This document shows, piece by piece, positions 58,342 through 63,760 of a stretch of 64,000 nt of DNA (the stretch's first letter is position 1; each line of letters starts with the position of its first letter). Source of the DNA: Chitinivibrionales bacterium (lineage in GTDB: Bacteria > Fibrobacterota > Chitinivibrionia > Chitinivibrionales > WJKA01). The position numbers were made by a program, and so were the translations under genes. The stretch covers positions 35,272 through 99,271 of the forward strand of contig WJLW01000024.1 in assembly GCA_014728295.1 (NCBI GenBank), read 5' to 3'. The notes under the pieces are model-generated. The model saw nothing but the letters and a program-made list of their open reading frames with translations, was not told where the DNA came from and ran no database searches.

Positions 58342-58874
58342 TCATCTTCTCTGGTTCTCTCGCCCGGTACGATGACGGGCGCTCTTGCGGGCACGATCCT
58401 TCTGTCTGCTCTGGAATCCCAATTCTGTCTTAAGCCGGTTCTCTATAATTAATCAAGCCTGTTCAATTGCAGCCAACGATTTGCTCCACCGCCCGAAGTT
58501 TGCGATACAAAGTGAAGAAAATTTAGGGCTGGCGCTGTTGTACGATGTGCGGCTACAATATCAAGACGGAGTGGCGTTTGAACGGGCTACGATGAGATTG
58601 TGCCGCCAGGAACGGCGGCGACTACTGTTTTCTTTCACACATGCAAGAGCACGTCCTGAAGAACGTGCCACACGCTTCTTGTTCTTATCAATGTCACACT
58701 GAAAAATAGATCTTCACACATGGGCAGGGCACCCGCGCGCTATGCGAAGTGCCTGTGTTGCGCCTGCGGCGGGCATTTTGTATAGCGGCTGTTGTGCGTT
58801 GAACCACAAGCATCTGCCGATATTGAATACATTCATGACGCTACGCCTGGACGGCGTAGCTATTTATAGGGTAA

Positions 58875-59045
58875 TTAATGGGCTTTTTCTTGTTTCTCAG
58901 TTTTTAGAAACTTATGATTTACTCTTTGGGCAATTTTTTCATTTAATTCACGATATTTTCGAATATCACCCTTTGATTCTTCAAATAGTCTTTTTTGAAC
59001 TTGGTTTTTTTTATCTACCAATGGATCTTCAAATGGTAATATCAT
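58875..59045 (-). CDS. 56-aa ORF absent from supplied track, downstream partner of PIN gene
   Basis: Read directly: MILPFEDPLVDKKNQVQKRLFEESKGDIRKYRELNEKIAQRVNHKFLKTEKQEKAH*; start lies 3 nt after the PIN stop. Confidence 0.65.
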   Translation of the reverse strand: MILPFEDPLVDKKNQVQKRLFEESKGDIRKYRELNEKIAQRVNHKFLKTEKQEKAH

Positions 59046-59048
59046 ATT

Positions 59049-59528
59049 TCACTCTGTTTCGTTAAATAGTTCTAACGGGGTAATAATTTTTGGTGTAGCT
59101 AATCCAAGCTTACCATTTGTGACTCGGATGTGCTGGTCTTTATTAGCATTTGCCAGATGATTACAATTCCAAGTGAGTAAATAATCAATTTTGTGATATG
59201 AGGCCATCGCTAAATGAAATGCATCTCCGAATGAACCTCTGGGCATCACGTATTCTTTTATATAAACTTCGGCAATGCCATCAATTTCCTCATAATATTC
59301 AAGCTGAAAGATTCCATTAAGCAAATTGAGTATATTACCCTTATTAGGGTAATCACCCTGGTCTAATTCAGTTATTGTAAAAAATGAAGTATATAAATCA
59401 AAATGAATTCTTTGTGTATCCCACCATCTTTTTGTAGTCAAGATAAATGCTTGAATAGATTCTCGTTCATCATAATAATGACTGGGAATCGTAGTATCTA
59501 AATACACCGATTTTATTTGTTCAGACAT
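59049..59528 (-). CDS. PIN-domain protein (putative VapC-like ribonuclease toxin)
   Basis: 'SVYLDTTIPSHYYDERES...ELDQGDYPNKG...GDAFHLAMASYHKIDYLLTWNCNHLANAN' with spaced acidic PIN residues. Confidence 0.82.
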   Translation of the reverse strand: MSEQIKSVYLDTTIPSHYYDERESIQAFILTTKRWWDTQRIHFDLYTSFFTITELDQGDYPNKGNILNLLNGIFQLEYYEEIDGIAEVYIKEYVMPRGSFGDAFHLAMASYHKIDYLLTWNCNHLANANKDQHIRVTNGKLGLATPKIITPLELFNETE

Positions 59529-59650
59529 ATAAATACCAAAATTAGAAACTAAACAACTTAAATAAGATTAAATCGCAAAATACATTTTTTCTGGCAACCA
59601 TGGATGGTTTCCTCCATTTTGATAATTTAAGGCAGATGCTTGTGGTTTTG

Positions 59651-59800
59651 CAAACACCGGGTAAGAAGAAGGCTTTTCAGCCTCCCCCTCCCCTCAGAAC
59701 TGTGCATGACAGTTTCCCATCACACAGCTCAAGCACCTGTAAAGCAGTTTTATTCTAAAAACCACCCGGACTCCTCGATAAAGTGCCCATCAATATTTAC
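59651..59800 (-). mobile_element. Group II intron-like RNA fragment
   Basis: Minus-strand 'caggtgcttgagctgtgtgatgggaaactgtcatgcacagttctgaggggagggggaggctgaaaagccttcttcttacccg' resembles the conserved stem-loop region near intron-encoded RT genes; no RT ORF present. Confidence 0.5.
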
Positions 59801-61603
59801 CTACATGCATCAAACCAAGGGTACTGACACGCCAGCAGTCCCAGCCTTCGACAAATTTCTTTGATCCAATAAGCAGGTTTACCGCAGACGAGGAATCCTT
59901 AACGGAATCAAAGGTCGCTTCGGAAAAATCGCTATCCTCAACAGACAGTGATAAACCATCCTGCTTGGCCACGCCTTCAATGTGATCCGCAAGTGCTTTG
60001 GCATCGCCAACGTTAATCAGGCCAAAAGGCGTTTCTGATGTACCGACTCGCAAAGCAATTTCACCGGATTCACCTTTTACGCGTTCAAGGGCCAGATGTC
60101 CGCCGATGTTTGTATTGAATAGGCGCTGCAGGATATTTTTGTAAAGGTCATCATAGGAGAGCCCAGCATTTATTGTTTTAGCCAGCCATGTAAATGGGCC
60201 CTCAAAAATATTTACGCCGTTGCTGTCCAACAGGCCTGTGTCCTGTCCGTTTTCGGTCAGAATTTCCTTCATTCGCTTGCAGGCTTTATCTTTGCTCGAG
60301 AGGAAGTCGGCAATAAATACGATGATCTGGGCAACATCGGTAGCAACAATCTGTTCATCCTTTCCAAGTTTGCCACCGGTTACGGTGCTCCCCACAAATA
60401 CCCATAGTGGCTTCTCAATATTAAAAGGATGCAATGCCTGGCTCTTGTCCTCATAGATATCAAGCTGCTGATAGAATTTGAGCAGACAGGCGGTTAAGTA
60501 GACGGCTTTTGTCTCATCAAATGATTCCGGCATGTTAAGAATCTGGTAGTCTTTGCCGAAGCCATCCTCATAAAACCAACGGTATGAGTAGTCGAAAACC
60601 ACCGTTTTTGCATAGTCGTCTTCGTTACCCGTACCGGAAACGGCCTGATCAAAGGCTGCTGAGCATTCGAAGGTAAATCCTTTTTCACACAGCATGGCGC
60701 GGTTTTTAAACCATGCGTTTTCATCGACCTTGGCATTTTTCCCTGAGAGGCCGCGATGTCCTTCGTCAACAAGCAGCAAGTTCTGATCGCCAAGACTGCG
60801 TGTTGCAATCGTATTCGGACCTTCCTTGTCACCCAGCTTGGTAATTTCCAGAACATCCACTCTGGAAAGCCCTTGAGCCTGCGTGAACAGACTGTGGCCT
60901 TCCTTTGAAAAATTAGATGCTCCAATATTACTTTCAGAAAACTCGGCAATATGTTGTTCGCTCAATCGCTCATTCGGTGAAATCAGTACAACCCGGGAGA
61001 GATCCTTCTCCTTGCCCTGTTTTTTTGAGTAGTGCTTGTACTGCATATAGTTGACATGCATCAGCAGTGTCTTTCCGGAACCGGTGGCATTCTGCAAAGA
61101 GAGCTTGTTCAGCTCATCTTCATTGAAATAATCCATATCGGCATATTCCGGCCAGCGGCTGTTAAACCGGTCAACATACTCATTTAACGCTGCGAGCAAA
61201 GACTCCCGGTCGCTGAAATATCGGTCGAGATAGATTTCAACAAACAGAAGCGAAAGCCACTGCTAATACTTCCAGGTGACTGGGCGATGACGTTTGGCAT
61301 TAATCGCCTGGGTGTGGTGGACAATGTTTTCCTCATACGCGAGCAGTTGCGCTTTGCTCAGTTCCGTTACATCATCCCAAAAGAGGTTACTGTTAACCAG
61401 TGCATGGTAAAAGTTATGCAGATTGTCTTTGTCCAAGCCTTCCAGCCTATGATCACGAATAGGTTCAGCAAGTTTGTGAAAAGTACGCTTTTTTGCGCCT
61501 TCCCGAAGCGGATCAATGCCGAACAAGCTCATCAGCCATTGATTCAGAAGAAGCTTGTCTCTGAATTATGCTGCTTTGGTCCTTTGGATTTGCGTGTAGC
61601 CAC
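59790..61603 (-). pseudogene. res: Type III restriction enzyme Res-like helicase subunit, degraded
   Basis: GTG start at 61603 ([15 protein letters not shown]), frame change near 61545-61566, 'NQWLMSLFGIDPLRE...TWKY' then TAG (61263-61265) then 'QWLSLLFVEIYLDRYF...LQNATGSGKTLLMHVNYM...LLVDEGHRG...KKFVEGWDCWRVSTLGLMHVGKY*' truncated. Confidence 0.82.
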
Positions 61604-62688
61604 TATTTATCCCCCTCTTTTTGGGAGGCTTCGAGTTTTTGTATCATCCGGTCGAAGTCACTTTCAAACAAACGGTCCTGTACAATCCGATATTTTTCAA
61701 ATTCAGTCTCCGCATGTGTTTTTGCCAGCTCTGCGCTAACTCTGCCGGCATCATTGAGAATCTCTCGATCCCATAGTTTCAAAAATCCGGCTAACCTCTT
61801 TTCCCAATCTGCCATGGACATGGGTATTTTGCGCATCGCCTGAATTTCAGCCATATCCAGGTACGCAGAAACTATGCGTTGCATTTGGCTAAGTTCAAAT
61901 TCCGTGAGATAGTTCTTTGCAATCGACACATCGAATTTATGAATCTTTCCCCGGGGAGCGCCATCCCAATTGGTAAGTCCCATATGATTTTTTTGATGGT
62001 CGGCACGGTATATTATCACCTCAGCTGCAGTATTGCCATAAATCGCATAGTGCAATTTATTTTGAACAGCGGCAAAAAAGCGTTCGGTAGCAGTTGCAGA
62101 TGGGTCATAGTCCAGCGCTGTGGCATAAATGTCAGTGATTTTCTGATAAAATTTACGCTCCGACAAACGAATTTCCCGAACTTTTTCCAATTGGCGTTCG
62201 AAAAATTCATCCGTCAACGTTCCACCATTTTTTAACCGCTCAACATCCATGGTCCAGCCTTGGATGGTATAGTCTTTTACGATTTGATTCGCCCATTTGC
62301 GAAACTGAACAGCCCGTTCATTTTCAATTTTAAAACCAACCGCAATGATGGCCTGCAGGTTGTAGTGGTTAGTTTTGTAGGTTTTTCCGTCCGAAGCAGT
62401 TATTAAGTATTTCTTAATAACTGCTTCCTGCTCCAATTCATTATCTGAAAATAGCCGTTTCAAGTGCTGATTTATAGCTGAAACCGAAACATCATACAGA
62501 GTTGCCATAAGCTTTTGGGTAAGCCATATATTTTCGTCTTCATAGCGCATTTCAACGCTTGTCTCTGAGCTACCCGTTGCAGCAACAAAAGACAAGTATT
62601 CGGCAGTTGAAGATCGGATAAGCTCGGTTTTCCCCTTTGAGCGCTGCCTGTGGCTTGCTTTCGTATGCTTGATTTTTTTTTCAGCCAT
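61603..62688 (-). CDS. RhuM-family protein
   Basis: '[87 protein letters not shown]'; intact; shares stop/start bases with both neighbours. Confidence 0.9.
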
Positions 62689-63760
62689 TATGCTGCTCCT
62701 CCTACGTCCCACATTCTTTTATGGAACTCCTCTTCAATACGGCGCACCTTCCAGTTTTCATCATCTTTTCTCAGATTGGGCAGGTTATTGGAGCCGTTGA
62801 CATAGATGGTGTCGTATTCAAAGTCGCGGGTTGAAATACGGTATTTCTCGAACCACTCGTCCAGCATCAGGTTGTCTTTTTCCAGATTGCCGGTGAGCTT
62901 ACGCCACACAATCAGCACACGCTCTTTCTGTCCGTTGGCCCAATAACATCGTTTAAAAAATTAGCCCCATTGGTACCTGCGTTATATTTTTTGTCAGTCC
63001 AGCTACTGAATAAAGCTGTTTTCTTTTCACCATGTTCAATTAGTTGGTAAATGGTAAAATTGGAACTGCATTTCAATTTACCAGCTTCTGCAAGCTTCTT
63101 GCCTGTCTCAAATGCATTTCGCCAGACTCTTTCTGTATTCCCTTTGCCTATCGGATAGACACGCTTGTACCCATCCTGTGTACCCTCAGTGGGAAAGTTT
63201 TTTGCATTCCTTTCCGGCGGCTTCTCAATACCCACAACAGAATAGTTTTCGGGGTTAACAAGGATTGCGTAAAAACTGTTTGGTCGTCCATATCTAAAAC
63301 TACTTTCAGCTGTTCCACTGCGTTTATATGGTCTTTCCTCAACATCGTCATTGACTGCTCTGCCTACTAATGTTCTATCTGAATCTTTATCAACCATCGC
63401 GAGCATATACTCATGGGTATTGGCCAAGGTAACGGCCTTTCCGCCTTGTGGATGATGATTGATGACAATCATTTCCCTCCTGAAAGGCAAATGTGTATCA
63501 ATCATTTCGCACAGAGGCACCATTTCATAGTCATCTATTGCAATGTAATAGACAAAATCAACTGCAAGTAACGGGCAGCTCAGATTAATTCGATTCTCCA
63601 TAAGGGAAAGCCATGCGGAAGAATCAAACACATTTTTATAGAGAATCTTAGAGTCTCCAGTGTTGTATGGAGGATCAATGTACAAACACTTGACTTGTTC
63701 TTTGAATCTCTGCTGCAAAATGTTCAAAGCCTGAACACAGCCATCCCATAGGATTACACT
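62688..63760 (-). pseudogene. mod: Type III DNA methyltransferase Mod, truncated and internally deleted
   Basis: N-part 'QALNILQQRFKEQVKCLYIDPPYNTGDS' (DPPY motif) ... 'NGANFLNDVIG' fused near 62936 out of frame to C-part 'ANGQKERVLIVWRKLTGNLEKDNLMLDEWFEKYRIS...'. Confidence 0.82.

Follow-up and report, generated by a model that had tools for sequence, protein, structure and literature searches.

A PIN-domain gene pair between 17-bp inverted repeats as a probable decayed integron-like gene cassette in a Chitinivibrionales genome

The inverted repeat and its cargo

The stretch of 64,000 nucleotides analyzed here (the window) contains an 846-bp AT-rich module bounded by AACCACAAGCATCTGCC and its exact reverse complement. 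The left arm (58802–58818, plus strand) and the right arm (59631–59647, minus strand) represent the 3′ and the 5′ end of the module, respectively, when read along the minus strand. The original prediction had described a perfect 17-bp inverted repeat around a segment of higher AT content, and the coordinates, the exact complementarity and the drop in GC content, from ~0.50 outside the arms to 0.28–0.36 between them, were all confirmed. It had also considered such a repeat unlikely to arise by chance. A scan of 671 kb sampled from the same genome for inverted pairs with a loop of 250–2500 nt ranked the window pair at the top with a score of 17, and revealed eight pairs scoring at least 15, compared to none in the block-shuffled sample. 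A common dispersed repeat as the source of the 17-mer, named in the original prediction as grounds for refutation, was tested and failed: with up to two mismatches allowed, the 5.29-Mb genome contains only two occurrences, the two arms themselves. The arm pair is thus neither a chance match nor a dispersed repeat. A search of a plasmid collection gave no informative match.

Two genes on the minus strand occupy the module: a PIN-domain, toxin-like gene of the VapC fold encoding 159 residues (59049–59528), and downstream of it a 56-residue partner, the probable antitoxin (58875–59045). The Pfam PIN match of the 159-residue protein is sub-threshold (15.2 bits against a cut-off of 23.6). Its AlphaFold2 model, predicted from a 29-sequence alignment, has a pLDDT of 90.7, and a structural similarity search with Foldseek revealed VapC proteins of VapBC complexes as the best matches, with a best E-value of 4.8e-5 and a TM-score of ~0.6. 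Homologues sharing 50–58% identity are scattered over Gammaproteobacteria, Chloroflexi, Chlorobi, Cyanobacteria, Cloacimonadota and other phyla, which suggests horizontal transfer. At most homologous loci a small open reading frame directly follows the PIN gene, often with a 4-nt overlap with its stop codon, and an HMM built from these downstream frames, with the window sequence left out, matches the 56-residue partner at 28.7 bits. Given that the PIN gene and its small partner are conserved together across many phyla, they likely form a toxin-antitoxin operon, in which the PIN protein would be toxic and the partner neutralizing. The pair resembles VapBC systems in the PIN fold, the small partner gene in the operon and the broad horizontal spread. 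However, the antitoxin gene precedes the toxin gene in VapBC, whereas in the window, as in the homologous pairs, the PIN gene leads; moreover, the window toxin falls below the Pfam PIN cut-off and the partner has no known domain.

Among 70 loci tested, a clearly significant terminal inverted repeat brackets the PIN pair at only a handful, the window included. The second condition that the original prediction had named as refuting it, genes without the repeat in relatives, thus applies to most PIN homologues, as would be expected of a pair carried on cassettes only occasionally; the use of the pair as a cassette marker was dropped for the same reason. The 2.7-Mb genome of one relative (G018) holds 24 matches to the window PIN protein. 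In a Thiosymbion genome (L102) the pair is flanked by a canonical-looking attC, and in a Cloacimonadota genome (L142) GTTAGGTG-type ends flank it.

Flanks of the module and sister cassettes

Further analysis of the left flank revealed, in minus-strand order after the arm, the R″-like box GCACAAC (58791–58797), a heptamer common to G000:C49 (G000 being the window genome) and G007:C377, then a 3-nt spacer and an attC-like hairpin (58738–58787) composed of L″ CGCTATACAAAATGCC (58772–58787) and L′ GGCACTTCGCATAGCG (58738–58753), with a score of 17 and a predicted structure. Judged by its sequence, the left flank is the R″-L″-L′ part of an attC-like site and lies 3′ of the genes, as it should. The site ends right after L′, where a dispersed genomic repeat (58598–58741) starts in place of the outer R′, which is absent. 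This repeat has matches of 79–89% identity on contigs C61, C32 and C78 and a weaker one on C46, carries GCGGGTGCCCTG at one end, lies near the contig ends on C61, C32 and C46, and is possibly REP-like. Since the total stability of the window fold is not above that of shuffled sequences, the attC-like assignment draws on comparison with the sister loci. Counting GTTRRRY in the window was uninformative, with fewer occurrences than expected by chance. The attC-like sites were located by a palindrome scan, a stricter attC finder having missed known sites.

On the right, an 8-nt remnant of an R′-like cassette start, GTTTGCAA (59648–59655, minus strand), comparable to GTTGTGCAAAAC and GTTGTGCGCAAT of other cassettes, separates the arm from a 5′-truncated group II intron (59656–59797, minus strand). 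The latter comprises the end of the intron-encoded protein region and domains V–VI, and terminates in CCCGGT. The domain V/VI model RF00029 scores 63.2 bits at 59656–59732 (minus strand; gathering score 40), placing the intron end 8 nt outside the arm and on the strand of the PIN gene. The bounds of the fragment (about 59655–59797) were set by comparison with the copy on C45, and five other copies of the 3′ end occur in the genome. Only ~140 nt of the intron are left in the window; domains I–IV and the intron-encoded protein are missing, and directly upstream lies a type III restriction res gene (59790–61199, minus strand) truncated by the fragment; the PADLOC REase_III profile is matched by this gene only up to position 630 of 1154. 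The res gene is part of a type III restriction-modification region (59790–63727, minus strand) with a RhuM-family gene between mod and the truncated res. The original prediction, which had recognized the repeat and the cargo, overlooked both the intron domain V/VI on the right and the attC-like hairpin on the left. Similar to the window, intron 3′ ends sit at a cassette start on C45 and C102, with a terminal-inverted-repeat cassette next to them, and the C45 intron, oriented like the cassette, follows a stretch similar to the attC-like interior of the G007 cassette. A candidate intron 5′ end starting with TTTGCG was withdrawn, for it resembles the same attC interior.

The same cassette plan is present at four other loci of the genome, on contigs C45, C102, C49 and C87, each with its own arm sequence. 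The C45 cassette contains a second PIN pair between the arms GGTGTCAATATTTTTGGCGATAT and ATATCGCCAAATATACTGCCACC, and its attC-like site is complete, consisting of R″ CACCAAC, 1 nt, an 11-bp stem, 5 nt and R′ GTTGTGAG; the C102, C49 and C87 cassettes carry other cargo. Complete attC-like sites also flank the C87 and G007 cassettes. The motif CAACAGCGGCAAACCG has three exact matches in the six genomes searched, all three of which have a distant matching arm (0 of 100 shuffles each), compared to none of the other matches tested. The motif GTTRTGCGAAATG showed no enrichment in the genome over the reversed control, and among its folded matches only the one in C45 has an attC-like look. In the C87 cassette (L231, 168–1660), which has arms and a complete attC-like site, the cargo is a recombinase-like gene whose catalytic positions, by reading of the residues, are altered; the attC core of this cassette shares 86% identity over 70 nt with that of a PIN cassette on G001:C170.

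Cassette ends and patch-less recombinases

Superposition of each cassette start on its reverse-complemented end revealed a recurring organization: the two match through the R box, diverge in a short mismatch, and then match again over ~10–20 nt, as in GTTGTAAGCAATGCCTGCCGG versus GTTGTAAGCTGTGCCTGCCGG and GTTGTGAGCAATACAGAAACGGG versus GTTGTGAGCTGTACAGAAACGGG. The window ends, GTTTGCAAAACCACAAGC versus the reverse complement GTTGTGCGTTGAACCACAAGC, possess the same features, in that the arms, a terminal inverted repeat of cassette-specific sequence, continue into R-like boxes. None of 306 cross-genome mismatched pairs is as good as the window pair beyond the first 9 nt. The spacers are unequal where measurable, with 1–3 nt at R″ and 4–5 nt at R′, and the attC-like spans range from 79 to 293 nt. 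Neither the window R boxes, GCACAAC and GTTTGCA, nor those of the sister cassettes, GTTGTNNGC, fit the canonical RYYYAAC and GTTRRRY. In the IntI arrays of G010, G083:C53 and G070, the cassette ends share only the 7–10 nt of the R box. A true IntI array on G043:C444 (L070, 105–2097) contains three cassettes with terminal inverted repeats of 21–24 nt or longer, and long arms are therefore not exclusive to the patch-less type described below. In several arrays, among them L317 and L321, the two cassette ends also match over another short block (GGCGCGC-like), located ~35 nt inward from each end.

No protein of the window genome scores above the IntI cut-off, the best TIGR02249 stretch scoring 93.6 against 265 bits, an absence that is not absolute at a genome completeness of 98.8%. 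On C49, a 481-residue tyrosine recombinase reads toward a cassette that starts with GTTGTGC and has an attC-like site reaching the end of the contig. This recombinase matches the XerA/XerD models, and TIGR02249 in two pieces only; its relatives were found in 23 of 151 genomes. Cassettes start 90–450 bp downstream of a same-strand tyrosine recombinase in four genomes (G000:C49, G007, G043 and G083). At G007:C377, G043:C319 and G083:C85, the cassette has matching arms and starts 92–122 nt past the recombinase match, and at G043:C319 an array of four consecutive cassettes, their arms 20–21 nt long, lies behind the recombinase; G026:C121 is a weaker case (p ~0.03). Multiple-sequence alignment showed that a patch of ~35 residues characteristic of IntI is missing from all these recombinases, and the IntI sequences group in a fully supported clade of their own, outside which the patch-less recombinases fall. 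Contig-wide scans of G007, G043 and G083 revealed no inverted repeat around the recombinase itself.

The motif TAGTTGTRNGCAAT, with 17 sites in relatives, served as a specificity check: each of the three sites behind a recombinase marks the start of a cassette with an inverted repeat (0 of 100 shuffles each), compared to a single site with p=0.02 among those tested away from a recombinase. As the motif is not enriched genome-wide, the reversed control having roughly as many matches, it is useful only next to a recombinase. The window holds a single cassette with no array and no recombinase nearby, in contrast to the C49 cassette and those of G007, G043 and G083, and the recombinase is assigned as the moving enzyme by association only. 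Related patch-less recombinases at L323, L325, L326 and L328 are followed by zinc-ribbon transposase genes, IS91-like in look; the family also serves other elements.

Altogether, we propose that the window module is most probably a decayed integron-like gene cassette, in which the 17-bp repeat represents the cassette-specific outer stem of an attC-like site. The earlier suggestion of a non-autonomous mobile cassette with toxin-antitoxin cargo comes near to this reading, the closest system being an integron-like cassette rather than a transposon; an inversion flanked by repeats gained no support, the arms occurring nowhere else and the anatomy being that of cassettes elsewhere. Along the minus strand, the putative cassette would comprise an R′ remnant, the first arm, the PIN toxin gene, the small antitoxin gene, the second arm, an R″ box and the attC-like hairpin. 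In the circular or single-stranded form, the two arms would come to lie side by side in vivo and zip together. The hairpin that a tyrosine recombinase would recognize would thereby gain a stem of ~17 bp, with a small mismatch between this stem and the R box. The mismatch and the spacers may mark the strand and the position for the enzyme, and excision and insertion would occur at G^TTGT. A patch-less tyrosine recombinase, such as the one on C49 and those in related genomes, probably moved the cassette, and its toxin-antitoxin pair would penalize loss and thus favor retention. The upstream site was presumably invaded by a group II intron, the 5′ part of which was then lost along with the 3′ end of res, and the downstream outer R′ was probably lost to the dispersed repeat. 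With the outer R′ lost and the upstream half replaced by a truncated intron, the window copy is probably no longer mobile. For an empty-site comparison, the flanks in G001 were searched against G002 and gave no match to the region.

Alternative explanations

An ordinary integron cassette, moved by a canonical, patch-containing IntI that was later lost, with the patch-less recombinases as bystanders, is an unlikely explanation, albeit one of some weight. True IntI proteins are encoded in relatives, including G002 of the same family (374.8 bits), the IntI array of G043 has the long cassette ends described above, and the Thiosymbion PIN homologues are flanked by a canonical-looking attC. However, no protein of the window genome passes the IntI cut-off, a patch-less recombinase directly precedes the C49 cassette, and only 7–10 nt are common to the cassette ends in the other IntI arrays of the phylum. 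A MITE-like, non-autonomous transposon, in which the 17-bp repeats serve as transposase ends around toxin-antitoxin cargo, appears very improbable: despite the perfect terminal repeats, the lack of a transposase gene and a possible 3-bp TTG beside each arm, the genome has one copy and no multiple copies with the same terminal repeats. In addition, the arms of the sister modules differ in sequence and could not be shared by one transposase, and the arms border on attC-like boxes, with the end of a group II intron alongside at three of the loci.

An Xer dif module as known from Acinetobacter plasmids, with genes between inverse dif sites moved by XerCD, shares its gross plan with the window module, namely toxin-antitoxin cargo between short inverted sites (PMC13141974). 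Such modules, often carrying toxin-antitoxin genes, have near-constant 28-bp XerC-spacer-XerD sites (PMC13141974), whereas each cassette described here has arms of its own, which bear no likeness to a dif site, and a conserved 28-bp dif-type sequence was not seen; we therefore give this explanation even less credence than a transposon. Both window flanks are rearranged, with a truncated res, a truncated intron and a dispersed repeat, as would suit a local scar such as an inverted duplication during insertion of the intron and the dispersed repeat. But the two insertions enclose the inverted repeat from outside, and repeats of other sequence are present at the insertion-free cassettes of C49, G007, G043 and G083, which makes a scar the least credible of these explanations.

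Comparison with known systems

The decayed integron-like cassette of the window may belong to a second integron-like system, a proposal to which we assign roughly even chances, in which patch-less XerA-like recombinases mobilize cassettes and long folded ends replace the structural cues read by the patch. The recombinase would read toward an attachment site consisting of a hairpin and then often ACTAGTTGT, and the folded end would comprise an outer arm, a mismatch, an R box, an asymmetric spacer and an inner stem. If so, a cassette platform can also work without the patch domain, with a folded end that is longer and of a different build, and integrase-based searches would miss such arrays or list them as integrase-less clusters. 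An extra domain near the C-terminus sets IntI apart from other integrases according to the authors of IntegronFinder, and recombination of the folded single-stranded attC has been attributed to it (PMC9024848). The present cassettes raise the question whether the patch is needed for cassette recombination, or whether a longer stem is sufficient. Neither cassette-specific terminal inverted repeats nor patch-less cassette recombinases turned up in searches of the open-access literature.

The right flank resembles the group IIB (CL1) intron UHB.I2, which has a GU 3′ boundary and lies in cassette orientation directly after an attC, and also the truncated introns with only domains V–VI found in integrase-less attC clusters (CALINs) rich in toxin-antitoxin genes (PMC7923331). 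They have in common the GU 3′ boundary, the cassette orientation, the post-attC position, relatives consisting of domains V–VI and toxin-antitoxin cassettes nearby. Compared to UHB.I2, the window copy is reduced to ~140 nt, and its class was assigned from the boundary and the position rather than from a tree of the intron-encoded protein. As for the arrangement of recombinase and cassettes, the Treponema-type integron has an integrase, a true IntI, co-directional with its array; the available part of that report describes no long terminal inverted repeats in its cassettes (PMC3607928).

The closest known system is the integron cassette with its attC, as a CALIN or a single-attC relic. Both consist of one or more genes followed by an attC-like hairpin, with complementary R boxes at the ends, and integron cassettes likewise form arrays behind a tyrosine recombinase, carry toxin-antitoxin cargo and become stranded without an integrase. 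They differ, however, in several aspects. A canonical attC ends at its R boxes and spans 57–142 nt (PMC2727003), whereas here the complementarity extends 10–20 nt past the R box with a recurring mismatch, the spans reach from 79 to 293 nt, the spacers are unequal (1–3 versus 4–5 nt), the R box is often GTTGT instead of GTTRRRY, and the recombinase lacks the IntI patch. A single decayed cassette that carries a toxin-antitoxin pair is nothing out of the ordinary for integrons; the unusual features are the long terminal repeat specific to each cassette and the linkage of such cassettes to recombinases without the IntI patch.
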